Source of the DNA: Nitrospirae bacterium CG2_30_53_67
GTDB taxonomy: Bacteria > CG2-30-53-67
DNA length: 22,845 nt
Direction of reading: 5' to 3'
Assembly: GCA_001873285.1 (NCBI GenBank)
Contig: MNYV01000101.1
Coordinates: 1-22,845, forward strand
Shown here: positions 2,814 to 21,700 of the stretch, one piece after another
How the letters are laid out: each line of letters starts with the position of its first letter
How positions within the stretch are numbered: position 1 is the first letter of the stretch
Position numbers and translations under genes: made by a program
Notes under the pieces: model-generated
Database searches by the model: none
What the model saw: the letters and a program-made list of their open reading frames with translations, nothing else
What the model was told of the DNA's origin: nothing

Positions 2814-3023
2814 GGGTTCGAGGGTTGAAAAGCCATAGGGTTCTAGGAATCAAGGGGTCAAGGGTTCAAGTGAAATGAAACCAAGCAGAATCTCCAGAGA
2901 AGAACACTGGAACCCTTTAACCCTAGGACCCTCGGCCCCTTATGTTTTTAGCACTTCGCTTGACCCCTTGAATCCTTGACCCCTTGACCCCTGATTTTTT
3001 CCTCCGCTCTTTTGGAGATGATC
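2814..3023. repeat. Palindromic intergenic repeat, copy A
   Basis: This is the most diverged of four related copies. Its arms are built from short CTTGACCCC/GGGGTCAAG-type units in inverted orientation around a centre containing AATCTCCAGAGAAG, AACACTGGAACCC and GGACCCTCGGCCCCTTATG. The right end CTCTTTTGGAGATGATC lies 10 nt beyond the ptsI stop codon. It fills the gap between two convergent genes and could act as a bidirectional terminator. It lacks the nested 71-bp module found in copies B and C and the full left terminus found in C and D. Confidence 0.8.
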
Positions 3024-3032
3024 TTTATTTTC

Positions 3033-4793
3033 TTAAGTCTCTGAATTGGCATCCCACTCAAACTCCTCTGGGAAGCGGGAACGCATGTGCGCCTTGGTAT
3101 ATTCCTCGATCTCTCTGGCCGTGGAAAACTTGAGAATTTCATTTGCAAGACGTTTGGATTCCTCCAGGGATACCGATAGAATGATCCTCTTGACCCTGGG
3201 GACCGAGACGGGATTCATGCTGAACTCCCGGAGCCCCAGCCCCAGAAGCGCAGGGGCGTAAGTCGGGTCCCCGGCCACTTCACCGCACATGGCCACCGGA
3301 ATCTTGGCGTCCATGGCCACGGAGATCACATATTTGATCATGCGCATCACGGCCGGGTGGAGCGGCTCGTATAGATAGGCGACATGTTCATTCACCCGGT
3401 CGATCGCCAGGGTGTACTGGATCAGATCGTTGGTGCCGATACTCAGAAAATCCACTTCCCTGGCGATCATGTCGGCCACAATGGCGGCGGAAGGGACCTC
3501 GATCATCGCCCCCAGCGGGATATTCTCCTTGAACTCCACCCCTTCCCTGCGAAGATCTTCCAGAACCTCGTGAAAGATATTTTTAGCCGTCCGCAATTCC
3601 ATCACGCCGGAAATGAGCGGGAGCAGGATCCTGAGATTCCCGTAAACGCCGGCCCGGGCAAGCGCCCTGAGCTGGGTCTTGAAGATGTCCTGATGCGCCA
3701 GACAGAACCGGATGGCCCGAAGACCCATGGAGGGGTTGGACTCCCTTGAATAGGGGATCTGCATGGAGAGTTTGTCCCCCCCGAGATCAAGCGTCCGTAT
3801 GGTCATGGCTTCGGGATAGATCATCTCCAGGGTGCTCTTGTAGGCCTGGAATTGTTCCTCCTCGCCGGGAAGATCGGGTCGGTTCAGGAAAAGAAATTCG
3901 GTCCTGTACAGTCCGACTCCGTCCGCCCCATGCTCCAGGACACTGCAGACGTCATCAGGGGTCTCAATATTTGCAGAGAGACGGACCCGGCATCCGTCGC
4001 TGGTTTCCGCAGGAAGGTGCGTCAGCTTCTGCAGCTCTTTCTCAAAATAGATATAGCGCCTCTGCTTTTCGAGGTACCGGTTGAATGTTTCATTGTCCGG
4101 ATGGATGACCACGGCGCCGCTGCCGCCGTCAAGAATTATAGGATCGCCGGACTTAACACAAGCCGTGATGTTCCCAATCCCGACGACGGCTGGGATATCC
4201 AAAGACCTCGCCATGATTCCCGTGTGGCTTGTCTTCCCTCCCAGATCGGTTGCAAATCCTTTGACGTGCTCCCGGCCCATCTGCATGGTGTCGGCCGGAG
4301 TCAGATCGTGAGCGATGACGATGACGTCCTCTTTCAATGAGGAGAGGCTCATGGGAGCATGGCCGGAGAGATTATGCAGTATCCTCTCTCCGACATGAAC
4401 CACGTCGGAACTCCTCTCTTTGAGATAGTTGTCTTCAATGGATTCGAAAGCGGAAAAAAATTCATCCAGAACTTTCTTCAAGGCGCCTTCAGCGGCGATG
4501 AGATCCTTGCGGATAATCTCATGGGTCCCTTCGGTCAGCATTTTGTCCTTCAACATCATGATGTGGCTGTCGAGGATAGAGGCGTGAGACGCCCCGATCC
4601 GGCTGCTGAATTGCGTTTTTACGGCTTCAAGCTGTGAGATGGACTTGGAGAGGGCCTGCTCAAAACGCAGGATCTCGGCTTCAACCTGGTCCTGGGGAAT
4701 CTTGATGATCTCGATCCTGACCTTCTCCCTGCTGAACACAAAGGCCTTCCCGATCGCAACACCCGGGGAAACGCCTATGCCGTGAACCTTCAT
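3033..4793 (-). CDS. ptsI: PTS Enzyme I (PEP-protein phosphotransferase)
   Basis: This cytoplasmic enzyme takes the phosphoryl group from phosphoenolpyruvate and passes it to HPr. At 586 residues it has the usual length. The N-terminal HPr-binding half leads to the phosphohistidine loop GGKTSHTGIMARSLDIPAVVG with His190. The C-terminal PEP-binding barrel shows DGVGLYRTEFLFL, RTLDLGGDK, GAMIEVPSAA, LSIGTNDLIQYTLAIDR and the late MCGEVAGDP with its acid/base Cys. The ATG follows the ptsH stop codon with no intervening base, and GGGGAGGAG at the end of ptsH serves as the ribosome-binding site, so HPr and EI are translationally coupled. It is the last gene of the long minus-strand PTS block, and repeat A follows its stop. 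Confidence 0.97.
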   Translation of the reverse strand: MKVHGIGVSPGVAIGKAFVFSREKVRIEIIKIPQDQVEAEILRFEQALSKSISQLEAVKTQFSSRIGASHASILDSHIMMLKDKMLTEGTHEIIRKDLIAAEGALKKVLDEFFSAFESIEDNYLKERSSDVVHVGERILHNLSGHAPMSLSSLKEDVIVIAHDLTPADTMQMGREHVKGFATDLGGKTSHTGIMARSLDIPAVVGIGNITACVKSGDPIILDGGSGAVVIHPDNETFNRYLEKQRRYIYFEKELQKLTHLPAETSDGCRVRLSANIETPDDVCSVLEHGADGVGLYRTEFLFLNRPDLPGEEEQFQAYKSTLEMIYPEAMTIRTLDLGGDKLSMQIPYSRESNPSMGLRAIRFCLAHQDIFKTQLRALARAGVYGNLRILLPLISGVMELRTAKNIFHEVLEDLRREGVEFKENIPLGAMIEVPSAAIVADMIAREVDFLSIGTNDLIQYTLAIDRVNEHVAYLYEPLHPAVMRMIKYVISVAMDAKIPVAMCGEVAGDPTYAPALLGLGLREFSMNPVSVPRVKRIILSVSLEESKRLANEILKFSTAREIEEYTKAHMRSRFPEEFEWDANSET

Positions 4794-5060
4794 CTACTCC
4801 TCCCCGAATTTGTTGTTCACCAGCATGGCCAGGCTTTCTATGGCCTCATGCTCGTCCGGTCCATGGGCCTCCAGAATCAGTTCCGTGCCTTTGGCTGCGG
4901 CAAGCATCATGATCCCCATAATGCTCTTCCCGTTGACCTCGGCATCATCCTTCTTGACCAGGATACGGGAGGCAAAACGACCGGCCATCTCAACGAACAT
5001 GGCCGCGGACCTCGCATGCATACCTAACTTATTCTGAATCAGGACTTTTGCAGCCTTCAA
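4794..5060 (-). CDS. ptsH: Phosphocarrier protein HPr
   Basis: This 88-residue small carrier shuttles phosphate from EI to the IIA domains. The catalytic loop NKLGMHARSA places His at position 15, the classical site. NGKSIMGIMML places Ser at position 46, the regulatory site phosphorylated by HPr kinase. That fits the hprK gene upstream in the same block. The C-terminal EEFGEE-like end overlaps the ribosome-binding site of ptsI. Because both His15 and Ser46 are present, the protein can in principle take part in both phosphotransfer and HprK-dependent regulation. Confidence 0.97.
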   Translation of the reverse strand: MKAAKVLIQNKLGMHARSAAMFVEMAGRFASRILVKKDDAEVNGKSIMGIMMLAAAKGTELILEAHGPDEHEAIESLAMLVNNKFGEE

Positions 5061-5076
5061 ATCTTTTTTCTCCTCT

Positions 5077-5844
5077 TCATATCCACCATCCCATGTGAGA
5101 CAAGCCTTGAGAAAGGATGAGCAGCGCCGCCGCCTGGATCAGGAGGGGCACACCCTTGCGTTCGGCTTTCACGCCGGCCCAGACCAGCAGAGCCATGAAA
5201 ACGAACAGACCAAAATAGGTGAAATTGACCGCAGGGACGGCCTGCAGGATCCACAAGGGAAGGAATAACCCAACAGCGAAAAGGATCATGCCGTTCATCC
5301 AGTAAATCTTTTTCTGAAATTTTACGTTATTCAGGTAGGTCAACAGACCCGACCCGTAGGCGTATCCGTTCCACAGACCCGCTCCTCTGATCCAGAGGGT
5401 GACCAGGTTGTACAGGACAAGAAACAGGAGCGGGGCGGCTGTCTCGTCAATGACGGCGGCCAGCGCCGCCGCCAGGCCTGCCAAGGGCCGGAGCGCCCCC
5501 CACGTGAGCGAATCCCCCAACGCCCCCAACGCGCCTGTCAGATCATTCTTGAATGTATCGATCTCTCCCGCAGTGACCCGGCCCTGTGCCCGTTCCTCCT
5601 CCAGACGCAGGGTCCCGCCCAGAATCATCCCGGCGAAATAGGGATTGGTGTTGAAGCAGGTCAGGTGCCGCTTGATCAGATCTCTGACTTCCTCCTCGGT
5701 AAATCGGGCGTGACGAAGAAGCGGGACCAGGGCATAGGCAAAACCGATCCCCTGAAAGTTCTCGAAGTTCCATGCAGCCTGTATGAAAAGCCCCCTGAAC
5801 AGAGCCTTGGAAAAGACCGGTATGCAAAGATGTTTCTTATTCAT
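5077..5844 (-). CDS. PTS mannose/fructose/sorbose family IID component
   Basis: This 255-residue membrane component belongs to the mannose-type PTS, where IID works with IIC to move sugar across the inner membrane. The family start is clear (FRGLFIQAAWNFENFQGIGFAYALVPLLR), followed by YFAGMILGGTLRLEE and a long N-terminal soluble part; the C-terminus has hydrophobic segments (about 170-250). GAAAGGTGA precedes the ATG. It lies between IIC upstream and ptsH 16 nt downstream, so it is probably co-transcribed with both. It is somewhat shorter than the E. coli ManZ type, from general knowledge. The sugar cannot be read from the sequence, and no catabolic gene is adjacent. Confidence 0.93.
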   Translation of the reverse strand: MNKKHLCIPVFSKALFRGLFIQAAWNFENFQGIGFAYALVPLLRHARFTEEEVRDLIKRHLTCFNTNPYFAGMILGGTLRLEEERAQGRVTAGEIDTFKNDLTGALGALGDSLTWGALRPLAGLAAALAAVIDETAAPLLFLVLYNLVTLWIRGAGLWNGYAYGSGLLTYLNNVKFQKKIYWMNGMILFAVGLFLPLWILQAVPAVNFTYFGLFVFMALLVWAGVKAERKGVPLLIQAAALLILSQGLSHMGWWI

Positions 5845-5920
5845 ATCACCTTTCAGCTTATCCCTTCCATGAATATTTTAACCTCCCTGCAGTTTGATGC
5901 GCTTTGTTCTTTCAGCCGTG

Positions 5921-6694
5921 TCATAAAACGCTGATCCGGCGCTCTTGAACGTAGACCATGGCGAACGACAGAAGAAAGAAAGACACAAGGACCGGCATGC
6001 TCTGCTGCCGCAGCCCGATAAATATCAAGAAGGATGCCATGGCTCCGGCTGCAAGGTGAATGCGGCCCTGCATGATATTCTTCCTGGCCAGCAGAGAGGC
6101 GACCCCAACGGCTGGAAGGAAGAAAAAGAACAGGCGCAGCCCCTGCAGGACCTCATCGGAAAGAAGCGCATATCCGCTGCTCAGCAATCCGCCGGAGAAT
6201 CCGACGACCAGGAACGTCACTCCAAAATAATAGAGGAAAAATATCAGGATCCCCATCCGGACTGCACGGGCGGCGCCCTTCTCCGGTGATTCCGATAAAA
6301 CCGCCATTCGGATCAGCCCTGCATTTTTCCTGCGTATCCACTGATCGAGGAAACCGGCCGGGACCAGCAGGAGGCCCACCCATAGAAAGACCCAGGCCAG
6401 CCAAGCCGTATCTATCCATTGAACGGTCTCTGAATGAAAGAAAGAGAGCCCTGAAGTCAAGAGGGCTGCCAGAGTGGCATCTTTCGGGATATGGCCTCCA
6501 ATCGGTAATCCTCGGAGCCAGAAAAGCTCAAGCACGACCCCGATCAGCAAGCCTGTGTGAAAATCCCCCATCAGCCATCCGACCAGAGGCGCTGCCACAA
6601 TCGGCTGAGAGATCATGAACTGGCCGAACGCCAAGCGATCCAGACCTGCGAATCCCGCAATCAGGGCTATTTCAAAGGTTCCCCAAAACGACAT
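5921..6694 (-). CDS. PTS mannose family IIC component
   Basis: This 257-residue protein has seven or more hydrophobic segments, with the family features LDRLAFGQFMISQPIVAAPLVGWLMGD near the N-terminus and GVVLELFWLRGLPIGGHIPKDAT in the first third. IIC forms the sugar-translocating channel in the inner membrane together with IID. GGGAAG precedes the ATG at 6694. The gene lies 47 nt after IIB and 76 nt before IID. No truncation is visible. Specificity is unknown; IIC proteins embedded in rpoN-hprK-rapZ loci are often annotated as mannose, sorbose or N-acetylgalactosamine types without experimental support. Confidence 0.92.
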   Translation of the reverse strand: MSFWGTFEIALIAGFAGLDRLAFGQFMISQPIVAAPLVGWLMGDFHTGLLIGVVLELFWLRGLPIGGHIPKDATLAALLTSGLSFFHSETVQWIDTAWLAWVFLWVGLLLVPAGFLDQWIRRKNAGLIRMAVLSESPEKGAARAVRMGILIFFLYYFGVTFLVVGFSGGLLSSGYALLSDEVLQGLRLFFFFLPAVGVASLLARKNIMQGRIHLAAGAMASFLIFIGLRQQSMPVLVSFFLLSFAMVYVQERRISVL

Positions 6695-6741
6695 GGTCTT
6701 CCCAAGGATAGAGTACGGCCGGAAGGTTTCTCTTTGCTCAT

Positions 6742-7233
6742 TCAGAAGAGATGACTCTCTTCAATCAGGCTTTTGAGGTCCAGGGCCGGCTCCGACGGCA
6801 CGGAGCGGATCTCCACCTGGATGCCGAGTTTGAGAATCGCCTGAAGATCCCGGATGTCCTCTTCCGTGGCCATGATTCCTTTGTACAGGACTCTGGTTCT
6901 TCCGACCCCATGAAGTCCTCCAAGATTCAGACGATCGATGCAAAGCCCGCAGCCGATGGCCGACAATGCATCCTTGGGCAGCCGGAAAAGAATCATCGCC
7001 CTGCATGCCGAATAGGCCCCTTCCAGACAACCGGCGGCAGTCTCCTTGATCGTCAGGATTTCAGTCCGGACCCCGTAGGGGACCACCAGGGTCATGAGGT
7101 CCCGCTGGAATGAACTTGCCGCAGCCGCGTCGTCCGCCACCACGATCCGGTCGGGATGGAGATAATGAAACCATCCTTCCACAACCTGGCCGTGGATCAA
7201 ACGGTCGTCAATCCGGAACAGAACAATGCCCAT
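6742..7233 (-). CDS. PTS mannose/sorbose family IIB component
   Basis: The IIB protein receives phosphate from IIA and gives it to the sugar in transit. The active-site block FRIDDRLIHGQVVEGW places the phosphohistidine at residue 14. The reading frame extends five codons further to a GTG at 7248, but the ATG at 7233 has GAAGAG 7 nt upstream, so I prefer the ATG, giving 163 residues. Unusually, palindromic repeat B separates this gene from its IIA partner, with the repeat ending only about 10-25 nt upstream of the start. Its translation signals therefore lie just outside the repeat. Confidence 0.93.
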   Translation of the reverse strand: MGIVLFRIDDRLIHGQVVEGWFHYLHPDRIVVADDAAAASSFQRDLMTLVVPYGVRTEILTIKETAAGCLEGAYSACRAMILFRLPKDALSAIGCGLCIDRLNLGGLHGVGRTRVLYKGIMATEEDIRDLQAILKLGIQVEIRSVPSEPALDLKSLIEESHLF

Positions 7234-7258
7234 AAATTTTCTCTTCACTTATTCCAAA

Positions 7259-7518
7259 GGGTTCGAGGATTCCAGGGTTCAAGGGGTCAAGTGAAATACT
7301 TAAACGCAAGCAAACTCTACAGAGAAAAACACTGGATCCCAAGATGCCTTAGTGTAGTAGCCGTCGCAGACGGCAAGGATAGAGAAAAGCGGGACACGCG
7401 AAGCGTAACCCTTGACCCCTGGGACCCTCGGCCCCTTATTTTTTAGCACTTCACTTGACCCCTGGAATCCTTGACCCCTTGACCCCTGATGTTTTCACCC
7501 ACTCTTTTGGAAATGATC
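7259..7518. repeat. Palindromic intergenic repeat, copy B (with nested module)
   Basis: This 260-bp copy has the same arms as A, C and D: GGGTTCAAGGGGTCAAGTGAA on the left side is mirrored by CACTTCACTTGACCCCTGG on the right. The nested 71-bp module occupies 7341-7411. The right end TCTTTTGGAAATGATC overlaps the stop codon of the PTS IIA gene (TGA, 7517-7519). It interrupts the PTS block between IIA and IIB, so any effect on transcription would change the ratio between upstream regulators and downstream transport genes. Confidence 0.85.
7341..7411. repeat. 71-bp module nested in repeat B
   Basis: The module starts AAGATGCCTTAGTGTAGTAG and ends GCGAAGCGTAACCC. It contains two small hairpins, GCCGTC-GCA-GACGGC and ACGC-GAA-GCGT. 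It matches 17328-17398 over 71 bases with only two A/G differences, and it is absent from copies A and D at the equivalent point. It looks like an element inserted into an element, or an optional part of the repeat. Confidence 0.75.
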
Positions 7519-7933
7519 AGACCGCGCGCCCCTGCTGTTCCTTGAGCAGCGTGCTGGCCACAATGATGCCCCGCTTGCCGTATTCTTCAAGATGCCCGCA
7601 GAGTTCGGCCATCTGATGATCTTTACGCAAGGTGATCCCCTTGATCAGCATCGGGAGATTCACGCCTGTGATCACTTCAACCTTGGGGTTTTCAAGAAAG
7701 GCGAGGCTGATGTTTGAAGGAGTCCCGCCCAGCATGTCCGTCATGATGATCACCCCGTCCCCCTGATCCACAGCCTTGACCGCCTCTGCAATTTCCGCTC
7801 TGGCCGCGTCCACGGCCTTGGTGAAGTCCACGGAGACGGCGAGCACCCCCTCCTGCTTCCCCAAAATCCCTTCCACGCAAAGATTCAATTCGTCCCCGAT
7901 ATGAGCATGAGTGACCATCACGAAACCGACCAT
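7517..7933 (-). CDS. PTS mannose family IIA component
   Basis: This 138-residue single-domain IIA protein is the first sugar-specific phosphocarrier, taking phosphate from HPr. The N-terminal VMVTHAHIGDEL carries the expected phosphohistidine (His9), and MTDMLGGTPSNISLAF is the conserved family block. In many relatives IIA is fused to IIB; here it is a separate gene, divided from IIB by repeat B. GGAG lies upstream of the ATG, and the gene follows rapZ by 41 nt. A free IIA beside rapZ and hprK is common in deltaproteobacterial-type loci and may have a regulatory role. Confidence 0.94.
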   Translation of the reverse strand: MVGFVMVTHAHIGDELNLCVEGILGKQEGVLAVSVDFTKAVDAARAEIAEAVKAVDQGDGVIIMTDMLGGTPSNISLAFLENPKVEVITGVNLPMLIKGITLRKDHQMAELCGHLEEYGKRGIIVASTLLKEQQGRAV

Positions 7934-7974
7934 CCCGTTTTTTCTCCTCTGTTAAACCGCCGGATTAAACAGCC

Positions 7975-8847
7975 TCATCTCCGCTCGATATCCCGGTATC
8001 GAACGGATGTTTTGTACCCCTTCTCTTCCAGATGCTTCTTCACGTTGTCTACCACGACCACGGAGCGGTGGCGGCCGCCGGTGCATCCGAACCCCAGGGT
8101 CAGGTAAGACTTCCCTTCCTGAACAAAGAGAGGGAGCAGATAATCCAAAAATTCATAGAACCGGGTTAAATATTCCTGCGTCTCTTTCCGATCGAAGACG
8201 TACCGGACCACCTCAGGATCCTTGCCGGTGCGATCCCTCAACGTATCCACAAAAAACGGGTTGGGAAGGAACCGGAGATCAAATATCATATCCGCATCAT
8301 ATACTATCCCATATTTAAACCCGAATGCAACCAGGGAAATGGATATCCGCCTGCTTCGAATCGTGGATTCAAACTGTTTTCTGAGAACGTCCCTCAGGCC
8401 GTGGATGGAATAATCCGAGGTGTCGATCACGAGATCGGAACTCGCCTTGACATCGGCCAGCATCTCCCGTTCAAGGGCCAGGCCTTCAAGAACCGAGGTT
8501 TCAGCGAGGGGGTGTCTCCGCCGTGTCTCCTTGAACCGCCGTAGCAGCACCTCGTCCGAGGCATCCAGGAAGAGCACCTGGTATTCAAATCCGTTTTTCC
8601 TGATATCGCTCAACACATCATTGTATCTTTTCAAAAACTTTTTCTCCCGGATATCCACCACCACGGCGACTTTTTCAATCTCACTCCCGCTTTTCACACA
8701 GAGTTCCAGAAACTTGGGGATCAGTTCCATGGGAATATTGTCCACACAGAAGAAGCCCATGTCTTCAAACTGATGGATCGTGGTGCTCTTCCCCGACCCC
8801 GAAATACCGCTGATGATGGCAAGTTTAAGTGTCTGTTTCTTCATCAT
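7975..8847 (-). CDS. rapZ: RapZ/YvcJ-family nucleotide-binding protein
   Basis: This 290-residue protein is the RNase adapter / GlmZ-decay regulator family in enterobacteria, with YvcJ as the Bacillus counterpart. The P-loop GISGSGKST (residues 14-22) opens the kinase-like domain, followed by DMGFFCVDNIP. The C-terminal domain carries FGCTGGRHRSVVVVDNV, the family signature that binds RNA or metabolites in E. coli RapZ. Its ATG lies inside hprK (23-nt overlap), indicating coupled translation. Neighbouring ptsN, hprK and PTS genes are the usual context. Whether it acts as an RNase E adapter here is unknown, since the E. coli small RNAs need not exist. Confidence 0.96.
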   Translation of the reverse strand: MMKKQTLKLAIISGISGSGKSTTIHQFEDMGFFCVDNIPMELIPKFLELCVKSGSEIEKVAVVVDIREKKFLKRYNDVLSDIRKNGFEYQVLFLDASDEVLLRRFKETRRRHPLAETSVLEGLALEREMLADVKASSDLVIDTSDYSIHGLRDVLRKQFESTIRSRRISISLVAFGFKYGIVYDADMIFDLRFLPNPFFVDTLRDRTGKDPEVVRYVFDRKETQEYLTRFYEFLDYLLPLFVQEGKSYLTLGFGCTGGRHRSVVVVDNVKKHLEEKGYKTSVRYRDIERR

Positions 8848-9775: not shown

Positions 9776-9881
9776 AACCTCTCCTTATCGCGATGCCCGT
9801 ATTGCCGTAACCTCACCACATAGAGAAAACAAAAACCTTTTTGCCGCGAATGAACACGAATCTACCGGGAAAAATCATGGG

Positions 9882-10349
9882 TCATGGCCCGTACTTCTCA
9901 TCCTCTGCTCGGATCAGGTCATACAATTCTTCACGGGTTCTTGCCTTGAGGAGCCGTTTCCTGAAGCTCCTGTTCTTGAGAATCTTTGAGATCCTCGCCA
10001 GAGTCTTCAGGTGGTCCACCGGAGCGGCATCCGGAGCGGTCAGAACAAAAAACAGATGAACCGGCTTCCCGTCCATGGCATCGAAGTCGATCCCCTTCAA
10101 GGAGAGACCGAAGGCAAGAATCAGCCGGTCCAGATCCTTCAGCCTCCCGTGCGGGATGGCGATCCCTTCGCCGATGCCGGTGCTCGAAAGGGTCTCCCTC
10201 CCAAGAATCACTTCCAGAAATTCGTCCCGATCGCGGATCTTCTTCTGATCATACAGCAGGGACGCAAATTCCTTCAAGACATCCTTTTTATTTTGTCCTT
10301 TGAGGTCCGGAATCATCAGACTTTGTTCCAGCAGATCCGTCAATTTCAT
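9882..10349 (-). CDS. ptsN: PTS IIA-type regulator (EIIA-Ntr)
   Basis: This 155-residue protein is a fructose-family IIA domain without transport partners, as in the nitrogen PTS. The active loop GIGEGIAIPHGRL carries the phosphohistidine at residue 67, and MDGKPVHLFFVLTAPDAAPVDHLKTLARISKIL is the conserved second half. Family members regulate potassium transport, sigma-54-dependent functions or stress responses through their phosphorylation state. The position between hpf and hprK, downstream of rpoN, is the standard one. It begins 8 nt after the hpf stop. No EI-Ntr/NPr pair is visible, so the EI and HPr of this block may feed it. Confidence 0.95.
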   Translation of the reverse strand: MKLTDLLEQSLMIPDLKGQNKKDVLKEFASLLYDQKKIRDRDEFLEVILGRETLSSTGIGEGIAIPHGRLKDLDRLILAFGLSLKGIDFDAMDGKPVHLFFVLTAPDAAPVDHLKTLARISKILKNRSFRKRLLKARTREELYDLIRAEDEKYGP

Positions 10350-10357
10350 CCTTGATC

Positions 10358-10915
10358 CTACTCATAGACCGGTACGATCAGACCGAGATTCCCATCTTTC
10401 CTCCGGTAGAGAACATGGACCTGGTCGGTCTTTGAATCCGTATAAACGATAAAGTCATTTTCCAAAAGATCCAACTGCATGGCGGCTTCATCGGTGGACA
10501 TGGGTTTCGGGGCATATTTACGGGACCGGATGATCCTCGGTTTTGCTTTCGCCCTGCCGGTCTTTTTTTGTTCAGCGGGCTTCGGAGCAGCCGGTTTGGC
10601 CGCCTCTTCATTCAGCCGCGTCTTACCCTTCCCGCTCCAGTTTTTGGTTGTGAATTTTTTGTATCTCTGCCCGATACTTTCAATGGCACGGTCCACGGAC
10701 TGGTACATATCTTTGGTCTCTTCGCTCGCCTGGAATACCGAACCTCCGACATGGCATGTGACCTCCGCGAGATGCCGGTATTTTTCCACGTGCAGCCGCA
10801 CCTCTATATCCGACTCTTTATGAAAGCGGCGCTGCAGTTTCTTCAACTCCTTTTCGATGTGGTCCCGCAAACCATCGGTCAAATTCATATGTCTGGCCGT
10901 GATGTTCAACTGCAT
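10358..10915 (-). CDS. hpf: Ribosome hibernation promoting factor, long form
   Basis: This 185-residue protein has two domains. Residues 1-100 are the S30AE/YfiA ribosome-binding fold (MQLNITARHMNLTDGLRDHIEKEL, SDIEVRLHVEKY, DMYQSVDRAIESI). After a basic, Ala/Pro/Lys-rich linker comes the C-terminal dimerisation domain (SRKYAPKPMSTDEAAMQLDLLENDFIVY... VLYRRKDGNLGLI). Long HPF proteins dimerise 70S ribosomes into inactive 100S particles in stationary phase, whereas E. coli has separate short forms. GGGAGG precedes the ATG. It follows rpoN with a 227-nt gap, which leaves room for its own promoter; I could not identify one. Confidence 0.96.
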   Translation of the reverse strand: MQLNITARHMNLTDGLRDHIEKELKKLQRRFHKESDIEVRLHVEKYRHLAEVTCHVGGSVFQASEETKDMYQSVDRAIESIGQRYKKFTTKNWSGKGKTRLNEEAAKPAAPKPAEQKKTGRAKAKPRIIRSRKYAPKPMSTDEAAMQLDLLENDFIVYTDSKTDQVHVLYRRKDGNLGLIVPVYE

Positions 10916-13370: not shown

Positions 13371-13396
13371 CTTCCGCTCCTTCACACACCGAATAT

Positions 13397-13446: not shown

Positions 13447-13483
13447 CGTCCCGCATCCTTTGAGAACCTTTTTTCAACGGAGC

Positions 13484-14598: not shown

Positions 14599-14606
14599 AA
14601 AATACC

Positions 14607-15257
14607 TCAACGTATTAAGAGTAACCTTTTGATTTTTTTGATATATTCAGAAGCCTCCACCCCGCTGACCGGCTGGTCCACGGAAAACCTCCCGCCGGCG
14701 TCCAAGTCCATGACTCCGGCTTGTAACACCACCATGACCGATCCGTAAAAGAGATGATCATTAGGGAGATCGGACGGCTGATTCGGAGGGATCGGCCTTC
14801 GGACTCCTGAGATACCCCCTTTTTTGATCATCCCGGACAGAACCTGCGCCATCTCTCCACGGCTGACCGGCTGGTCCGGCAAAAACCGGTGATTTTTAAA
14901 AACCGGCATCAGACCCAGTTGCACGGTCTTCAGAATCTCCTCCCTGGCCCAGTGGTCTCTGAGATCCACCATGATCGGGATCTCCGGGCGTGCGCGGAAC
15001 GAATCCTTGGGAAGCTCGTACACCAGCAGAGCAGCCAACCCGCCGCGGGTGAGCACCTGCACCTTGGAGAGCGGAGTCATTTCTTCCGGCAATTTCTGCC
15101 GGGTTGGAATCTCCTGGACAGGGGCCTTGGCAGGGGCGGGCACAGGAGCCGGAACCGCCGGGACTGAAACCGGACCATAAGGCACACAGCCGAAAAGGAT
15201 CATCGCCATCCCCACTCCGGCCAGATAAAGCACGGGATAAAGCACGGGGTCAGACAT
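14607..15257 (-). CDS. SLH-domain-like probable lipoprotein, 5' end altered by insertion
   Basis: The C-terminal two thirds contain two S-layer-homology-like units: VDLRDHWAREEILKTVQLGLMPVFKNHRFLPDQPVSRGEMAQVL, and a weaker one around DLPNDHLFYGSVMVVLQAGVMDLDAGGRFSVDQPVSGVEA. Near the N-terminus MAMILFGC ends in a plausible lipobox Cys, followed by a Pro/Ala/Val-rich linker. The protein could be an envelope lipoprotein. The start is doubtful: the ATG at 15257 lies inside the inverted end of the RAYT element, and the peptide before the Cys has no basic residues. A GGAG-preceded ATG at VGMAM is an alternative. The original promoter and signal peptide may have been lost. Confidence 0.7.
   Translation of the reverse strand: MSDPVLYPVLYLAGVGMAMILFGCVPYGPVSVPAVPAPVPAPAKAPVQEIPTRQKLPEEMTPLSKVQVLTRGGLAALLVYELPKDSFRARPEIPIMVDLRDHWAREEILKTVQLGLMPVFKNHRFLPDQPVSRGEMAQVLSGMIKKGGISGVRRPIPPNQPSDLPNDHLFYGSVMVVLQAGVMDLDAGGRFSVDQPVSGVEASEYIKKIKRLLLIR
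15225..15248. repeat. 12-bp tandem duplication at the transposon border
   Basis: The unit ATAAAGCACGGG occurs twice in direct succession (15225-15236 and 15237-15248). The second unit runs into the inverted end of the RAYT element at 15246. In the SLH-like gene this encodes VLYPVLY. It may reflect slippage or the insertion event. Confidence 0.6.
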
Positions 15258-16290
15258 TGATAATTGGATATTTACCCCGCCCCTCTTTCCGAAGCGTCTT
15301 GACAATCCTCTGGATTTTCGCTGCAAGTTCACGATCATCGCATAACCTCTCCGTAAGCTTCTTCACTCCTAAACTGATGGATGCAGGATCCCGGCCAAAA
15401 CAGCCGGCTGATTTTATCAGGGGGATTCCTCCGATTTTCTTTGCAATATAGGATGTGACGGCCCTGCATAATGCAGCCTCTCTACTCCGGGAGCAATCCA
15501 TGATTCTCCCAACAGGCAGATTGAAGGCCTTACTGACCTCGGCAACCAGGGCATCTATTTTAAGGTCTATGAAAGATTCCATCCTGTCTTCTCTATCGAT
15601 CCGCTTCTCTATTCTCTCAACAAATAGGTCTTCTCCAAGATAATGCTGTTCCTTCACCGCATAGAGGTCTTCTCTGTGACCCGTTCTCAACGCGGCATGG
15701 ACAAAATCCTGATACGCGGAAAGCGCCGCCTTTCGGTTCTTCGACAGGATGGCCAAGGGCATATCCGTCTCAAGCCAGGACAAAGACTTATTTGAAAGGT
15801 ATGCCCGATGGCTGCTCCAGGTGTACTCGCCCGGAAGATTCACCATGCCGGCTCTGACCGGATTCAGATGGATATACCGGATCAATTCCAAGAAATAGGA
15901 ATCCTTGTCACAAATGATGGATTTGTATCTTCCCTGGAAGAGATGACCTGTCGTGCTGTATTTTCTATTGAAGTACATGGTATAGCTTTGCTGAAGCCCC
16001 TGCATCATCTTGGAAAGAGACGTTTTACCTTGTTCAATCAGCAGATGAATATGGTTAGGCATCAAAACATAAGCGTAGAGCGAACAGAGGCAGCGCCTCT
16101 GATAGGAGATCAGGCGGTTCAAGTATTGTTGGTAGTCTTCCTCTCCGCGAAAAACCTGTTGGCGCTGGTTCCCCCTTGCAATGACATGATAAAAAGCTCC
16201 TTGATATTCTACACGAGGCTTCCTGGCCATGCCTCATCAATAACAGAGTTGTGTAACGGTGTCAATATAAAAATATCAATGTCTGACCCC
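15246..16290 (-). mobile_element. RAYT transposon with perfect 17-bp inverted ends
   Basis: GGGGTCAGACATTGATA at 15246-15262 is repeated exactly in inverted orientation at 16274-16290. The interval holds one transposase gene. The inner flank of the right end is A/T-rich and can fold (GTCAATATAAAAATATCAATG-like). The element supplies the last codons and stop of the TPR gene on its right and a possible ATG for the SLH-like gene on its left. I saw no convincing target-site duplication, which agrees with HUH-type transposition. Confidence 0.8.
15250..16230 (-). CDS. REP-associated tyrosine transposase (RAYT, Y1/HUH family)
   Basis: The 326-residue protein starts in the typical way (MARKPRVEYQGAFYHVIARGNQRQ). 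It carries the metal-binding HUH motif MPNHIHLLIEQ (His60, His62), GHLFQGRYKS, and LIRYIHLNPVRAGMV with the probable catalytic Tyr119. Such single-strand DNA transposases act on short palindromic ends. The last third (about 225-310) is an extra helical domain in which IAKKIGGIPLIKSAGCFGRDPASISLGVKKL resembles DnaA domain IV; it is known in longer RAYT proteins and probably binds DNA. The stop codon lies within the left inverted end. The gene looks intact and the element may be active or recently active. Confidence 0.93.
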   Translation of the reverse strand: MARKPRVEYQGAFYHVIARGNQRQQVFRGEEDYQQYLNRLISYQRRCLCSLYAYVLMPNHIHLLIEQGKTSLSKMMQGLQQSYTMYFNRKYSTTGHLFQGRYKSIICDKDSYFLELIRYIHLNPVRAGMVNLPGEYTWSSHRAYLSNKSLSWLETDMPLAILSKNRKAALSAYQDFVHAALRTGHREDLYAVKEQHYLGEDLFVERIEKRIDREDRMESFIDLKIDALVAEVSKAFNLPVGRIMDCSRSREAALCRAVTSYIAKKIGGIPLIKSAGCFGRDPASISLGVKKLTERLCDDRELAAKIQRIVKTLRKEGRGKYPIINV

Positions 16291-16569
16291 AAGTGGGAGG
16301 AAGTTCGGGTTGAGTTCGTACGCCTTCCTGAAAGCCTCCCGCGCAGCGGGGTAGTCCCGCATCTCCTGGTAGGTATAGCCCAGATAATAGTAGGCGGCCG
16401 CGTGGTTCGGGTCTTGGGCAATGACCTCTTTGAAGGACTCCACGGCAGCCGGATAGTCTTTGCTGAAATAGAGATGCAAGGCAAAGTTGAGGCCATCCTG
16501 CCCGGCCCGGATCGTCACTGCCGTCGAGAGGAGCGCGATGACAGACAGGGATAAAATGATCTTTTTCAT
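16276..16569 (-). CDS. Secreted TPR protein, 3' end replaced by the RAYT element
   Basis: The 97-codon ORF starts with a signal peptide (MKKIILSLSVIALLSTAVTIRA) and has about two TPR units (YFSKDYPAAVESFKEVIAQDPN and AAAYYYLGYTYQEMRDYPAAREAFRKAYELNPNF). The final codons GVRH and the stop are read from the inverted end of the transposon (16274-16290), so the natural C-terminus is probably missing. The ATG shares ATGA with the stop of the cvpA-like gene. It is probably a periplasmic scaffold; the function is unknown. The product may still be stable, since TPR units are autonomous. Confidence 0.8.
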   Translation of the reverse strand: MKKIILSLSVIALLSTAVTIRAGQDGLNFALHLYFSKDYPAAVESFKEVIAQDPNHAAAYYYLGYTYQEMRDYPAAREAFRKAYELNPNFLPLGVRH

Positions 16570-17156
16570 TTTTTCTCCTTTTCCATGAGTTTGTCCATGA
16601 CCACGTCCTTCTCTTTCCGGATCATGGAGGAAATTTTCCTCTCTTTCCAGATCTGATCGAGTTTCTCCCGGGTTGCTTCAAAACGCCTCTGAATCTCCTG
16701 GGGCGCAGCCTTGGCGATCAGCCCGACGGTGGAAATGATGTACGGCGTCAGCTTGGATTCCTGGAGGACCCTGCTTCCCGGCATGAAGCTCGTCATGAGC
16801 ATGATGATCACGGAAACGATCAGGCATCCCTTCAGGAAACCGAACACGGCTCCGAGCAGGTGATCGGCCCATCCCAGCATGACTTGACGTGTCACACCCT
16901 CGAGCAAGACTCCGATGAGCCGTATGGCCAGGGTTGAACCCACAAAAACCAAGGCGTATCCGAGAATTTTGGAGAGGGGTGGGTGATGGATGAAACGGAG
17001 CATAAACTCGCCCATATACTCAAAGGTATGGTTGGCGATCAGAAAGCCCAGGATCACCGATCCGAGCGAGAAGACCTCCCTGATCACACCCTTGAAGAGG
17101 CTCAGCACAAAGGCCGATCCGACAATCACGATAATCGTTATATCAAGAAGGTTCAT
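16566..17156 (-). CDS. cvpA: CvpA family membrane protein
   Basis: This 196-residue protein has four hydrophobic helices (about 5-25, 28-48, 62-85, 100-122) with the family start LLDITIIVIVGSAFVLSLFKGVIREVFSLGSVILGFLIA and a central GWADHLLGAVFGFLKGCLIVSVI. CvpA proteins sit in the inner membrane and are linked to colicin V production and to envelope stress and bile resistance in enterobacteria. The charged C-terminal tail (about 155-196) is probably cytoplasmic. It is coupled by ATGA overlap to the TPR gene and follows repeat C. The gene symbol is by family only. Confidence 0.88.
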   Translation of the reverse strand: MNLLDITIIVIVGSAFVLSLFKGVIREVFSLGSVILGFLIANHTFEYMGEFMLRFIHHPPLSKILGYALVFVGSTLAIRLIGVLLEGVTRQVMLGWADHLLGAVFGFLKGCLIVSVIIMLMTSFMPGSRVLQESKLTPYIISTVGLIAKAAPQEIQRRFEATREKLDQIWKERKISSMIRKEKDVVMDKLMEKEKK

Positions 17157-17213
17157 TGTTTTGTTCTCAAACGGTTGTAAGATACCTATCGGTGCTTTAT
17201 AACAATTAAAGTC

Positions 17214-17500
17214 CTTCTCCCATTTAGTGGGTAAAAAGGGGTCGAGGGTTCAAGGGGTCAAGGATTCAAGTGAAATGCTTAAACGCAAGCAAAATCTCCA
17301 GAGAAAAACACTGTAACCCTTGAACCCAAGATGCCTTAGTGTAGTAGCCGTCGCAGACGGCAAGGGTGGAGAAAAGCGGGACACGCGAAGCGTAACCCTG
17401 GGACCCTCGGCCCCTTATGTTTTTAGCACTTCACTTGACCCCTGGAATCCTTGACCCCTTGAACCCTTATGTTTTCACCCACTCTTTTTGGAGACGATCC
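17214..17500. repeat. Palindromic intergenic repeat, copy C (with nested module)
   Basis: This is the longest copy (287 bp), with both termini. The left end CTTCTCCCATTTAGTGGGTA and the complement of the right end ATCTCCAAAAAGAGTGGGTG are imperfect terminal inverted repeats. Inside lie inverted GGGGTCAAG units and the 71-bp module at 17328-17398. The right end is 6 nt beyond the stop codon of the M20 amidohydrolase gene. It fills most of the 349-bp gap between the M20 gene and cvpA; the remaining roughly 60 bp before cvpA is A/T-rich and may hold a promoter I cannot identify. Confidence 0.85.
17328..17398. repeat. 71-bp module nested in repeat C
   Basis: It is nearly identical to 7341-7411 (two A-to-G differences) and has the same orientation and position within the host repeat. 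The high identity, compared with more variable host-repeat arms, suggests recent spread or conversion. Confidence 0.75.
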
Positions 17501-17505
17501 TATTT

Positions 17506-18678
17506 TTAGGGTTGATGTTTTTTGAACTCTTCATGCATCTTCTTCCGGACATCGGGATTCATCAGGACCTCCAGGCCGGTCAGCGCCAGGGCCTTGGCTG
17601 CGGTCCCCATAACCCGTTCTGCGTCCTCTGTACGCGCAGCCTCTGCAAACCTCGGCGTATGCGGCATGCGGTCCATGCCGCAGATGGAAAGCTCCGGGTG
17701 GATCGCCGGAAGGATCCGGCTGAGGTTGCCGATATCCGATGAGCCGATATATTTTGTCTCATCGGTATCGTCAATGACGATCCCGAGGGATTCCACGGCT
17801 TGCTGGAAGATCCCGGCCAGCGTATAGTTCGGCATCAATCCCTCATAGACCGGTCCGGCGGTCTCCACCGCGAAGGTGCATCCCGCGGCCCGGGAAGCCC
17901 CCTCCATGCAGCCCTTGACCCGTTCGATGATATGCTTCATGGTCCCTGTCTCAAGCGCCCGTACCGCGATCCTGGCCTCGGTCCTGGATGGAATGACGTT
18001 GACGGCATCCCCTCCGTGGGTGATGATTCCGTGGATCCGGACATCCTCCGGAGTCTGCTGGCGCAGGGCATTGACTCCTGAAAACATGAGAATCATGGCA
18101 TCGAGGGCGTTGATCCCCAGCTCAGGGGCGGCGGCGGCATGGGCGCTCTTCCCGTAAAATGTGATTTTGAGCTCGGTCATGGACAGGGTCCGTTTGACGA
18201 CCGCATTTCGGACCGAAGGATGGAACATCATGGCGGCATCGATCCCGTCAAAGACGCCGTGCTCGATCATCCTGATCTTGCCGCCGTACATCTCTTCAGC
18301 CGGCGTCCCTATCACCAAGATGCGCCCTTGGCCCCGGGGGAGGACGGAAGCGAGAGCGGCCCCGGCTCCGGCCCCTGCGGCGGCGATCAGGTTGTGCCCG
18401 CAGGCATGGCCGATACCCGGAAGGGCGTCATATTCCGAAAGAAAGGCCACCGAAGGCGACGCCGGCGCCCCCCGATGGGCCTTGAACGCGGTCTTAAGAG
18501 AGGCCGGTTCCTCCTCTAAATGGAATCCCTGGGAATCGAGGAACCGCGTCAGAAGCGAGTGCGACTCCTTCTCCTCAAAACCGAGTTCAGGATGGCCGTG
18601 GATGGCGCGGCTCAAGCCGACCAGTTCCGGAAAGAGCCGGTCCACTTCAGCGATCACCTTCCTACGAAGATCCGTCAT
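17506..18678 (-). CDS. M20 family amidohydrolase / peptidase
   Basis: This 390-residue metal-dependent hydrolase is of the M20D (AbgB/aminoacylase-like) type. Metal-binding and catalytic marks are IHGHPELGFEE, GHACGHN (His91, Cys93, His95), GTPAEE (Glu128-Glu129), FHPS (His153) and a C-terminal MPHTPRF. The dimerisation lid runs from about 165 to 280, with YGKSAHAAAAPELGINALDA as its typical start. The substrate may be an N-acyl amino acid, p-aminobenzoyl-glutamate or a peptide, and cannot be fixed from sequence. The start is preceded by the MITE-like copy 2, which separates it from rnc, so it may be transcribed independently. Repeat C follows its stop. Confidence 0.92.
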   Translation of the reverse strand: MTDLRRKVIAEVDRLFPELVGLSRAIHGHPELGFEEKESHSLLTRFLDSQGFHLEEEPASLKTAFKAHRGAPASPSVAFLSEYDALPGIGHACGHNLIAAAGAGAGAALASVLPRGQGRILVIGTPAEEMYGGKIRMIEHGVFDGIDAAMMFHPSVRNAVVKRTLSMTELKITFYGKSAHAAAAPELGINALDAMILMFSGVNALRQQTPEDVRIHGIITHGGDAVNVIPSRTEARIAVRALETGTMKHIIERVKGCMEGASRAAGCTFAVETAGPVYEGLMPNYTLAGIFQQAVESLGIVIDDTDETKYIGSSDIGNLSRILPAIHPELSICGMDRMPHTPRFAEAARTEDAERVMGTAAKALALTGLEVLMNPDVRKKMHEEFKKHQP

Positions 18679-18727
18679 GGTTTTTCACTCACTGGATAGG
18701 TTTATTCTTTGAAGGACCCTGCCTAAG

Positions 18728-18888
18728 TGGTCCTGTTCGTAAATATGGTAACGTACCGAGAGGGTCGTAGGGCGGTCTCATCTCCGCGCGCGACTGAGGT
18801 GTACCCACTGTGGTACGCCGCAAGGAGCGGAACGCAGATGAGGCCGCCCTACGGCACTCGAATGCGACCGTATTTACGAATAGGGCCA
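18728..18888. mobile_element. MITE-like inverted-repeat element, copy 2
   Basis: This 161-bp copy is inverted relative to that at 1895-2054. Read on the opposite strand, the two share most bases, including the ends and the internal GTAGGGCGG and CGCAAGGAGCGGAACGC blocks. CTAAG flanks both ends (18723-18727 and 18889-18893). The right flank contains the rnc stop codon, and the left flank lies about 45 nt before the M20 gene. It has no coding capacity. Confidence 0.75.
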
Positions 18889-19635
18889 CTAAGTGGCCCT
18901 TTTCGTTCCCGCCCTTCCGGCCTCGGTCCTGTGCACTTTCTTGATCTTTTCCAGGGCCTGCATGGCTGCCTGCTGCTGCGCCTCCTTCTTGTTCCGCCCG
19001 TTCCCGACGCCTAAGACCTCGCCGTTCACAGTGAGTTCCATGACAAAAAGGCGGTTGTGATCGGGACCGCTTGTCCGCTTGAGGTGGTATTCCGGAAGGC
19101 GCCCGAACCTTTCCTGACAGATCTCCTGAAAGGTGGTCTTGAAATCAAAAGGATGTTTTTGTTCCACGGCCTCCTCTATCATATCCTTGAAGTGCGCCAG
19201 AACCACCTGCGTGGCAGACCGCATCCCGCGGTCCAGGTAAATTCCGGCAATCACCGCTTCCAGGGCATCGGAGATGAGCGACACCTTCTCCCGTCCTCCG
19301 GTCCCCTCTTCCCCTTTGCCGAGGAAAAGATAGGTCCCAAGGCCGATTTTAGCGGCAATGGAGGCCAGGCCGTTTTCATTGACGAGGTTGGCCCGAATTT
19401 TCGAGAGCGCCCCCTCGTTCAGTTCCTGGTATTTCTTGTAAAGATAGTGGCTGATGATCAGGCTTAATACGGCGTCCCCCACAAACTCCAATCGTTCGTT
19501 ATCCTCCCGCCGCAGCCCGGGATTTTCATTGGCAAAAGACTTATGGGTCAGGGCGTTGATGAGGAGGGTTTGATCTTGGAAGGTATATCCAAGTTTCTCC
19601 TCCAGCGGGGATAAACCATAAACTTCAGGATTCAT
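18889..19635 (-). CDS. rnc: Ribonuclease III
   Basis: RNase III cleaves double-stranded RNA in rRNA processing and mRNA turnover. The catalytic domain shows NERLEFVGDAVLSL with its acidic residues and DALEAVIAGIYLDRG. The C-terminal double-stranded RNA-binding domain runs from DFKTTFQEICQERFG to NGRNKKEAQQQAAMQALEKI. The frame is open to 19710, but the ATG at 19635 has GAGG 6 nt upstream and gives 248 residues beginning [19 protein letters not shown], close to family length. The last codons (Thr-Lys-Arg-Ala-Thr-stop) are read from sequence that resembles the end of the adjacent MITE-like element. fabF-rnc linkage is common. Confidence 0.95.
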   Translation of the reverse strand: MNPEVYGLSPLEEKLGYTFQDQTLLINALTHKSFANENPGLRREDNERLEFVGDAVLSLIISHYLYKKYQELNEGALSKIRANLVNENGLASIAAKIGLGTYLFLGKGEEGTGGREKVSLISDALEAVIAGIYLDRGMRSATQVVLAHFKDMIEEAVEQKHPFDFKTTFQEICQERFGRLPEYHLKRTSGPDHNRLFVMELTVNGEVLGVGNGRNKKEAQQQAAMQALEKIKKVHRTEAGRAGTKRAT

Positions 19636-19765
19636 GCAATGCCTCAACACCGTTACACCCCGGCCTCTCGGCCCCGAGAAGCTGTGCGGGACCGGGTGTT
19701 TCCAATTCATCGGGATGAAACGTCACTGGATACGGCTCCTTGTCTGCGGACACTTCCTCATTCAT
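19625..19765 (-). CDS. Possible 46-codon ORF bridging fabF and rnc
   Basis: The ATG at 19765 overlaps the fabF stop codon (ATGAATGA), and the ORF ends a few codons inside rnc, so it tiles the gap exactly. The peptide ([20 protein letters not shown], then a Pro/Gly/Glu-rich tail) has no recognisable motif. It may be a small protein, a coupling ORF that carries ribosomes from fabF to rnc, or chance. Low confidence. Confidence 0.3.
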
Positions 19766-20993
19766 ACCTTCGGAGAACCAGTGTGGCATTGGTTCCTCCA
19801 AACCCCAATGAATTGCTGAGGGCCGCCCGGACCGGAACCCGGCGCGCCTGATTAGGGACATAATCGAGATCACAGGCCGGATCCGGCGCTTCATAGTTGA
19901 TCGTGGGAGGAATGATCCCATGCAGAAGGGTCATGGCCATGAAAACGGTCTCGATCCCGCCCGCCGCTCCCAGAAGATGACCGGTCATGGACTTGGTGGA
20001 GCTGACGGCAAGATGCATCGAGCGGCCTCCAAAGACCTTCTTGATGGCCAGGGTCTCGTTCTCGTCGTTAAATTTCGTAGAGGTCCCGTGCGCATTGATA
20101 TAGTCTATCTCATCGGGATTCATCCCGGCGTCTTTCAGGGCCATGGCCATACAGCGGGAGGCGCCCTCTCCTCCCGGCGCAGGAGATGTGATGTGATAGG
20201 CATCCGAGGTCAGTCCGTACCCGACGACCTCCGCATAAATTTTTGCGCCGCGCTTCCTGGCCAGTTCCAGTTCCTCCAATACCACCACGCCGGCCCCTTC
20301 TCCGATCACGAAACCGTCCCGCTCCGCATCGAAGGGGCGGCTGGCCTTTTCCGGCTCATGGTTCCGGGTGGAAAGCGCCCTCATGGCGGAGAATCCGGCA
20401 AGTGCCAGGGGACAGATGGTCGATTCGGTCCCGCCGGCGATCATGGCATCGGCATCATTCCTCTGGATCAGCCGGAAGGCATCCCCGATGGAATGGGTTC
20501 CGGTGGCGCAGGCCGTGACGATGGACGTGTTGGGGCCTCTCAGTCCGTAACGGATGGCGATCTGACCTGAAGCCAGATTGATCAGAACCATGGGAACAAA
20601 AAAAGGCGAGACCTTCCTGGGGCCGCGTTCCAAGAGGGTCTTATGGTATTTCTCAATGGCCTGAAGCCCTCCTATCCCCGCGCCGACAATCACCCCGACG
20701 CGTTCGGTATTGGAGGCGTCCACCACGAGGCCTGAGTCCTCCATGGCCATCTGGCCGGCGGCCATGGCATACTGGATGAAGGAGTCCATTTTCTTCTGAT
20801 CCTTCTTGTCTATATAGAGGTCCGGATCAAATCCCTTGACCTCCCCGGCGATTTGAGAAGGATACTCGGACGCATCAAACCGGGTGATACGGGTGATCCC
20901 GGATCGGCCGTTGATCAGCCCATCCCACGTGGTCTCGAGGTCATTGCCTACCGGCGTGACCACGCCCATCCCTGTAATGACAACCCTTCTCAT
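19758..20993 (-). CDS. fabF: 3-oxoacyl-ACP synthase II
   Basis: This condensing enzyme elongates acyl-ACP with malonyl-ACP in fatty acid synthesis. The thiolase-fold catalytic triad is visible: Cys162 in [10 protein letters not shown], His302 in NAHGTST and His339 in [10 protein letters not shown] (numbering from the ATG at 20993). [13 protein letters not shown] closes the protein. GGGGAG lies 4 nt before that ATG, giving 411 residues starting [16 protein letters not shown]. An in-frame ATG at 21017, directly after the stop of the small ORF upstream, would add eight residues (MDDTSGSV) and cannot be excluded. It is part of the fabD-fabG-acpP-fabF cluster. Confidence 0.96.
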
Positions 20994-21017
20994 AACACTC
21001 CCCGAAGTATCATCCAT

Positions 21018-21188
21018 TCAGATTCCCTGCCGCACGCTGCCGGGAATCTCCGGACGATAAGGATTTTTTCTGTAACCTTTCACGAACTCCTCATCGGCCC
21101 TGTTCATCCACAGGGTGAGACACCGGCCGGCGGTAAAAATCAAAGGAAGAATCTCCCATGCGTTCCCTACCGACATTCGGAATATCAT
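21018..21188 (-). CDS. Small hypothetical protein between acpP and fabF
   Basis: This 56-codon ORF fills the acpP-fabF gap. The peptide has a hydrophobic, possibly membrane-associated start (MSVGNAWEILPLIFTAGRCL), then TLWMNRADEEFVKGYRKNPY and a basic tail ending SVRQGI. The composition looks like real protein, and the stop is followed at once by an in-frame start for fabF, suggesting coupling. I do not recognise a family. The start (ATG 21188 or the adjacent GTG 21191) lacks a strong ribosome-binding site, so it may be coupled to acpP, whose stop lies 8 nt upstream of the ATG. Confidence 0.5.
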   Translation of the reverse strand: MIFRMSVGNAWEILPLIFTAGRCLTLWMNRADEEFVKGYRKNPYRPEIPGSVRQGI

Positions 21189-21195
21189 CACCGGA

Positions 21196-21420
21196 TCAGG
21201 ACCGGTCACGGATATAATCAATGGCATGCTGTACCGTGGTGATTTTCTCCGCCTCTTCGTCAGGGATCTCAATCCCGAACTCTTCTTCCAGGGCCATGAC
21301 CAGCTCCACGGTATCCAGGGAATCCGCTCCCAGATCATCCACAAAAGAGGCTTCCGGCTTGACTTGCGCGATATCCACATCCAACTGCTCTGCAATAATC
21401 TTCTTGACTTTCTCTTCCAT
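21196..21420 (-). CDS. acpP: Acyl carrier protein
   Basis: This 74-residue acidic protein carries growing acyl chains on a phosphopantetheine arm attached to Ser34 in [13 protein letters not shown], the classical modification motif. The helix pattern [16 protein letters not shown]...[26 protein letters not shown] is typical. It is slightly shorter at the C-terminus than the usual 77-78 residues. A strong AGGAGG precedes the ATG after an A-rich spacer, as expected for an abundant protein. It is separated from fabG by repeat D, with about 60 A/T-rich bases between the repeat and the gene that could hold a promoter. Confidence 0.97.
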
Positions 21421-21483
21421 TCTTTTTTTCCTCCTATTTAAATTTGTTTAGGATTTCGATATTCGTATCTACTATTTGCGGTT

Positions 21484-21700
21484 CTTCTCCCATTTAGTGG
21501 GTAAAAAGGGTTCGAGGATTCCAGGGTTCAAGGGGTCAAGTGAAATACTTGAACGCAAGCAAAATCGCCAGAGAAAAACACTAGGGAACCCTTGAACCCT
21601 AGGACCCTCGGCCCCTTATGTTTTTAGCTCTTCACTTGACCCCTGGAATCCTTGACCCCTTGACCCCTGACGTTTTCACCCACTCTTTTGGAGATGATCC
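21484..21700. repeat. Palindromic intergenic repeat, copy D
   Basis: This 217-bp copy has both termini (left CTTCTCCCATTTAGTGGGTA; right complement ATCTCCAAAAGAGTGGGTGA) and the inverted GGGGTCAAG arms. It lacks the 71-bp module: where B and C carry it, D reads directly from ACACTAGGGAACCC into the GGACCCTCGGCCCC block. Its right end is 10 nt beyond the fabG stop codon, and it separates fabG from acpP. Confidence 0.85.

Follow-up and report, generated by a model that had tools for sequence, protein, structure and literature searches.

Four palindromic repeats (copies A to D) in the window, the whole stretch of 22,845 nucleotides analysed here and one entire contig (MNYV01000101.1) of Nitrospirae bacterium CG2_30_53_67, belong to a family that, between co-directional genes, stands almost solely in one orientation relative to them. 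The family very probably consists of miniature inverted-repeat transposable elements (MITEs), non-autonomous DNA transposons, with ends of the type known from the insertion sequence (IS) family ISL3. This identity is ordinary in kind, and the strand bias is the interesting part. In gaps between co-directional genes, 38 elements had the right end to the stop codon of the upstream gene and the left end to the start of the next gene, and 3 were reversed (p = 1e-8). A bias of about 12:1 in these 41 informative insertions, present in fresh-looking ones too, unpredicted by the target and unrelated to the interior modules, makes it testable in a small and well-defined element whether transposons choose their orientation with respect to transcription or whether selection removes the wrong orientation almost immediately.

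The source genome (G000; 2.36 Mb, 183 contigs, 95% complete, with breaks at repeats) was scanned for elements in 472 kb of stretches surrounding all matches, both ends being sought, and genes were called with a codon-usage caller verified on the window. The sister species was represented by one genome of the same genus (G001). Searches of the source genome returned 98 matching stretches at E <= 0.001 with the copy D region as query and 120 with the copy C region. The conserved core gave 39 + 40 = 79 matches and its reversed control 5, the left-end motif gave 90 against 0 for its control, and the repeats in the window are not due to chance. In the end scan, 102 left ends, 90 right ends and 63 elements with both were found, corresponding to 124 loci after duplicated contig ends were dropped; the family of four copies described in an earlier note on this DNA is thus four for the window alone. 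The genome of the sister species held about 20 copies. The exact core pattern occurred in two contigs of the genome contig collection, both from the sister species; within the named collection it was absent from every other genome, and no match was found among viral contigs. One locus (L132, G000:C47, 6534-6822) consisted of two right ends in inverted arrangement with identical flanks and probably reflects an error of assembly where the contig ends.

Gaps were taken as informative when they were co-directional and both neighbour genes lay <=300 nt from the element. Counted as single ends in the source genome, right ends faced stops 62:12 and left ends faced starts 74:12; the median distance to the stop was 10 nt for right ends, and that to the start was 43.5 nt for left ends. 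The sister genome showed the same trend, its right ends facing a stop in 9 cases and a start in 2, and its left ends a start in 13 and a stop in 3. The slightly stronger bias of the left ends would suit an outward promoter or leader that serves the downstream gene, and outward -35 boxes are often carried by IS ends. Such a role is nevertheless improbable, as a pattern scan gave no promoter match in or beside any of the four window copies and the shared sequence has no visible consensus -10.

The strand bias was present with every set of interior modules. The shares of co-directional, convergent and divergent gaps equalled the background, and therefore the anomaly lies in the strand and not in the gap type; a preference for convergent gaps was rejected, no enrichment being found there. 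Target asymmetry was also rejected as the cause of orientation, since the target preference summed over empty co-directional gaps predicted 0.96:1 for the 8-bp duplication alone and about 1.5:1 with 3-6 flanking bases. A replication-strand effect is unlikely because both element orientations occurred within single contigs, tracking gene direction. The placement behind stop codons and on one strand, for which the earlier note had proposed this genome-wide test, was upheld, and the insertion at terminators that it had considered was not, the duplicated targets being plain AT-rich 8-mers and not terminator tails.

The window copies, their ends and modules, and the upstream genes as assigned by Pfam are given below; plus denotes the left-to-right frame of the element, and the ptsI mRNA reads the opposite strand of copy A.

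2806..3024, plus strand: copy A, left terminal repeat lost; between a convergent TPR gene and ptsI
7256..7519, plus strand: copy B, lacks its left terminal repeat and contains an M2 module; flanked by the phosphotransferase system (PTS) IIB start and the PTS IIA stop
17210..17500, plus strand: copy C, both ends kept, contains an M2 module; flanked by the start of a cvpA-like gene (17156) and the stop of the M20 peptidase gene (17506)
21480..21700, plus strand: copy D, simple element in complete form; flanked by the acpP start and the fabG stop
21472..21479, plus strand: left target-site duplication of copy D, CTATTTGC; 7/8 identical to the right one
21701..21708, plus strand: right target-site duplication of copy D, GTATTTGC
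21480..21504, plus strand: left terminal inverted repeat of copy D, GGTTCTTCTCCCATTTAGTGGGTAA; resembles ISL3 IS ends
21675..21700, minus strand: right terminal inverted repeat of copy D, GGATCATCTCCAAAAGAGTGGGTGAA on the minus strand
17210..17234, plus strand: left terminal repeat of copy C, AGTCCTTCTCCCATTTAGTGGGTAA
7340..7411, plus strand: M2 module in copy B, GATGCCTTAGTGTAGTAGCCGTCGCAGACGGC...GCGAAGCGTAACCC
17328..17399, plus strand: M2 module in copy C
3033..4793, minus strand: ptsI (phosphoenolpyruvate-utilising enzyme), upstream gene of copy A
7517..7933, minus strand: PTS EIIA-man, upstream gene of copy B
17506..18678, minus strand: M20 peptidase, upstream gene of copy C
21710..22453, minus strand: fabG-type short-chain dehydrogenase, upstream gene of copy D

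All four copies were present where the earlier note had located them and, as it had stated, close behind the stops of ptsI, PTS IIA, M20 and fabG. Measured from the conserved right end ...GGAGATGATC, the stop codon followed after 9 nt in copy A (ptsI, stop at 3033), 6 nt in copy C (M20, 17506) and 10 nt in copy D (fabG, 21710), and the right end of copy B overlapped the PTS IIA stop, with TGA (7517-7519) inside the terminal TGATC of the element. The centre GGACCCTCGGCCCCTTATG, described as conserved, was exact in copies A, C and D and had one mismatch in copy B. The outer inverted ends reported for C and D were confirmed, these two copies alone being full length. The common orientation of all four was likewise seen, but copy A is uninformative because it is flanked by convergent genes (the TPR gene ends at 2805), and four same-strand copies are weak evidence by themselves because nearly all window genes lie on one strand; the strand point rests on the genome-wide test and not on the window copies.

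The terminal inverted repeats of the family are imperfect and about 23 bp long (GGTTCTTCTCCCATTTAGTGGGT / GGATCATCTCCAAAAGAGTGGGT), with the left end GGTTCTTCTCCCATTTAGTGGGTAAAAAGGGTTCGAGG and the right end, read inwards, GGATCATCTCCAAAAGAGTGGGTGAAAACATCAGGGGTCAAGG; in about nine elements, the outer part of the left end was replaced by CTCCTCTACGAGCCATCGG. Elements ranged from 66 to 425 bp, and in the full elements there was no sign of a transposase gene, nor room for one. Identity within the flanking duplication was 0.67, compared with 0.44 when partners were shuffled (z 11.8), and peaked sharply at a length of 8 bp; in the 63 full elements the 8-bp duplication matched at 8/8 positions in 14 and at 7/8 in 13 (27/63 at 7-8 of 8). 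The duplicated targets were AT-rich with a nearly palindromic consensus, TTN-WWAWTTWW-NAA.

Several sites differed in occupancy between relatives. Sites C17:28122, C17:50771 and C64:3513 aligned in the sister species across the rebuilt junction and look empty there, and C41:2797, C75:4285 and C75:11036 were occupied in both species. The site of copy B was without the element in the sister species (G001:C41 7018-7046), that of copy D was empty in another genus (G002), and of copy A the sister species retains a shrunken remnant at the corresponding position. The sister-species gap lacking copy B (L240, G001:C41, 7005-7050) holds a different small palindrome, ATCAGATTTGAAATTTCAAATCTGATTTT. The fabG-acpP gap, home of copy D, has repeatedly received repeats, and in a further genus (L242, G005:C42, record 10598-10863) it is occupied by another insertion, in which TTTTTGCGAAGCCGTCACAT units recur.

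Being short and transposase-less, with terminal inverted repeats, a duplication of fixed length, multiple copies and empty sites in relatives, the elements have the characteristics of MITEs. ISL3 derivation is indicated by ISL3-like ends and by a target duplication of 8 bp both in the MITEs and in the ISL3 IS of genome G133, where six copies begin GGGTCTTCCGGTTTTGTAGTGGGCGG and 5/6 lie between perfect 8-bp duplications, mostly AT-rich. Further ISL3 ends were read in G023 (GGTTCTTCGCC/GGTTCATCGCC) and G171 (GGCTCATC), and in the sister genome GGGTCTTCTCCCAAACGAGTGGGTA precedes the start of the sole PF01610 (ISL3) transposase (E 2.5e-38) by about 80 nt. Since the ends match ISL3 elements in the sister and in distant genomes, the MITE is most likely ISL3-derived; no closer intact ISL3 copy was found among the 8 genomes of the phylum searched. 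The earlier note had called the family MITE-like or RNA-based and could not match it to a described one. The first term stands and becomes specific through the ISL3-type ends and 8-bp target duplications, the second is unsupported, and the lack of a match applies to the mosaic interior and not to the ends, which match a known IS family. No earlier description of an ISL3 MITE with 8-bp repeats was found in the literature, mostly non-subscription papers, which is weak evidence of absence. At one locus (L166, G000:C107, 1-331), the left end of the family is joined to an unrelated interior with a short C-terminal reading frame (SAVFSYNLLVMARLQEA, ending in a stop) before the contig end cuts it off; this is possibly an autonomous element or one with different cargo.

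The interior is composed of arms of GGGGTCAAG units and interchangeable modules, namely, M1 (CGCAAGCAAAATCTCCAGAGAAAAACACTGG), the core module (GGACCCTCGGCCCCTTATG), M2 (GCCGTCGCAGACGGC...GCGAAGCGTAACCC, in either orientation) and a CCCCGTTAGAGAG hairpin. In other genera of the same taxonomic family, M2 was found without MITE ends, which marks it as an independent repeat that came to sit inside the MITE. Several elements include part of a 23S_rRNA_IVP (PF05635) reading frame (G000, C94:1-254, C22:1-246, C123:1-231, C17:34457-34690 and C56:16003-16273), and intact genes for 23S rRNA intervening-sequence proteins (PF05635) are located elsewhere, on C159 and C145. The MITE interior is a mosaic of other repeats.

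The end sequences, the duplicated targets, the sites with and without elements, the placement and the strand bias are observations, and the following course of events is proposed for them. An ISL3-family transposase, the most likely mover of the MITE, would act in trans, recognising ends of the form GG-N-TC-W-TCTCC-N5-AGTGGGT and joining them with an 8-bp stagger to a near-palindromic AT-rich site (TTN-WWAWTTWW-NAA). Copies would persist in intergenic gaps; where genes are strung closely together, the AT-rich stretch open to insertion would lie immediately behind the stop and before the next ribosome-binding site. Between genes of the same direction, copies would be kept (or made) almost solely with their right end facing the stop of the upstream gene, whose transcript would read the element right-to-left, with a long hairpin beginning about 10 nt past the stop. 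There is about an even chance that orientation is set by selection on this transcribed hairpin, with reversed copies being removed. Selection is favoured over biased insertion because transcribed hairpins near stop codons affect mRNA in other families: the orientation of ERIC alters its effect on the upstream transcript (PMC2229807), and ribosome stalling has been reported for REPs no more than 15 nt from a stop codon, as has attenuation for BIMEs (PMC12306157, PMC3049150).

Three observations weigh against this course of events. A Pfam search for PF01610 found no intact ISL3 transposase in the source genome, a draft assembly, which lowers the claim of a current partner and not the match of the ends. 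The ISL3 copy of the sister genome is truncated and frameshifted, and its second end is unreadable. Finally, fresh-looking insertions, those with near-perfect target duplications matching at 7-8/8, were already concordant in 22 cases and discordant in 1, which would be quick work for purifying selection and is compatible with biased insertion too. With biased insertion, orientation would be fixed as the element inserts, by a transposase complex with unequal ends that reads a gene-direction cue (transcription, supercoiling or asymmetric target bending), and no later selection would be needed. This is a possible but tentative explanation. It agrees with a bias that follows the ends and not the interior modules and with orientations that track gene direction within single contigs, against a pure replication-strand effect; on the other hand, the target preference described above predicts far too little and the target consensus is nearly palindromic. 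We know of no ISL3 elements that sense gene direction, and it seems unlikely that transposition of this MITE does so, setting the right end behind the stop independently of interior and target sequence. Target and interior do not account for the bias, nor visibly does age, which leaves either insertion that is itself biased or selection so strong that it already acts on fresh copies.

Selection could also be positive, with copies kept as useful 3'-end elements whose transcribed hairpin serves as an attenuator or terminator, a barrier to 3'-5' exonucleases, an RNase III site or a ribosome staller. The median of 10 nt from the stop, the stalling and attenuation reported for REPs and BIMEs, a hairpin more stable than shuffles on the transcribed strand (z -6.3) and a transcribed-strand consensus with a stem followed by TTTTT are consistent with such domestication. 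It appears doubtful all the same. The other strand folded no worse (z -7.4), and good folding of both strands is the expectation for any palindromic MITE. RNAalifold on 18 copies found 0/44 pairs doubly changed, and with the single-sequence fold imposed 3 compensatory changes were counted versus 2.3 expected, not beyond shuffles. Pairs were kept equally on both strands, with G-U-retaining and A-C changes in 22 and 17 events, respectively (p 0.52), and a terminator pattern scan gave 26 matches versus 20.8 (standard deviation 4.3), no clear excess. Moreover, the sister species has lost most of copy A, and convergent gaps were not enriched. Without covariation and strand preference, the family is not called a structured RNA family, and an evolved structured RNA, as suggested in the earlier note, is unsupported. 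The family offers about 120 natural examples in which a long hairpin lies near gene ends, many directly behind stops in gene strings such as fabG-acpP.

In the window, Rfam matched only a tRNA-Pro. A strong hairpin at 1572-1632, with 29-bp arms (ATTAAAATTAGGGACCTTTCC...) that are 97% complementary, adjoins the 3' side of this tRNA-Pro(GGG) and is likely its terminator.

Compared with known systems, the elements share with ISL3-family IS (PF01610) the end type GG-N-TC-W-TC...AGTGGG and the 8-bp duplications seen in the G133 copies, but they lack an internal transposase, have only the outer ~25 bp in common with them and are unrelated in the interior. The RUP, BOX and Correia/NEMIS MITEs (PMC3049150, PMC2229807) are similarly small, with terminal inverted repeats, target duplications, a hairpin and IS-linked ends; they differ in a TA duplication, against 8 bp here, and the present family in its mosaic interior. 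RUP and BOX are enriched between convergent genes (PMC3049150); the present family is not, and it shows the 38:3 strand bias in co-directional gaps. ERIC/IRU are also hairpin repeats of transcribed intergenic regions whose orientation matters for the upstream transcript (PMC2229807), with unrelated sequence and other ends and duplications. TIMEs, Tn3-derived mosaic miniature elements (PMC4133298), are likewise non-autonomous with AT-rich targets and mosaic interiors, but have 38-bp Tn3 ends and duplications of 5-6 bp.

REP/BIME repeats resemble the family in lying near stop codons and in their mosaic of inverted modules. As the window encodes a RAYT (Y1 transposase, PF01797) at 15250-16230, and GGGGTCA-like arms are common to both, the copies might be REP/BIME-like elements mobilised by this enzyme, and the mosaic structure is indeed BIME-like. 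This is very improbable. REPs are palindromes of 20-40 nt without terminal repeats or target duplications, whereas the elements have clear 8-bp duplications and terminal inverted repeats, and the flanks of the RAYT itself (GGGGTCAGACATTG..) are unlike the element ends. To our knowledge, target duplications do not result from Y1 (HUH) transposition. The RAYT-type transposase showed a weak DnaA C-terminal-like match and is flanked by inverted repeats GGGGTCAGACATTGAT.../...ATCAATGTCTGACCCC at 15246-15279 and 16257-16290. A second near-palindromic repeat family of ~174 bp, with CTAAGTGGCCCTATTCGTAAATACGG / CCATATTTACGAACAGGACCACTTAG-like ends, occurs in the window at 1886-2059 and 18719-18894; with dozens of copies in G001, G002 and G005, it is more widely spread than the MITE family with ISL3-type ends.

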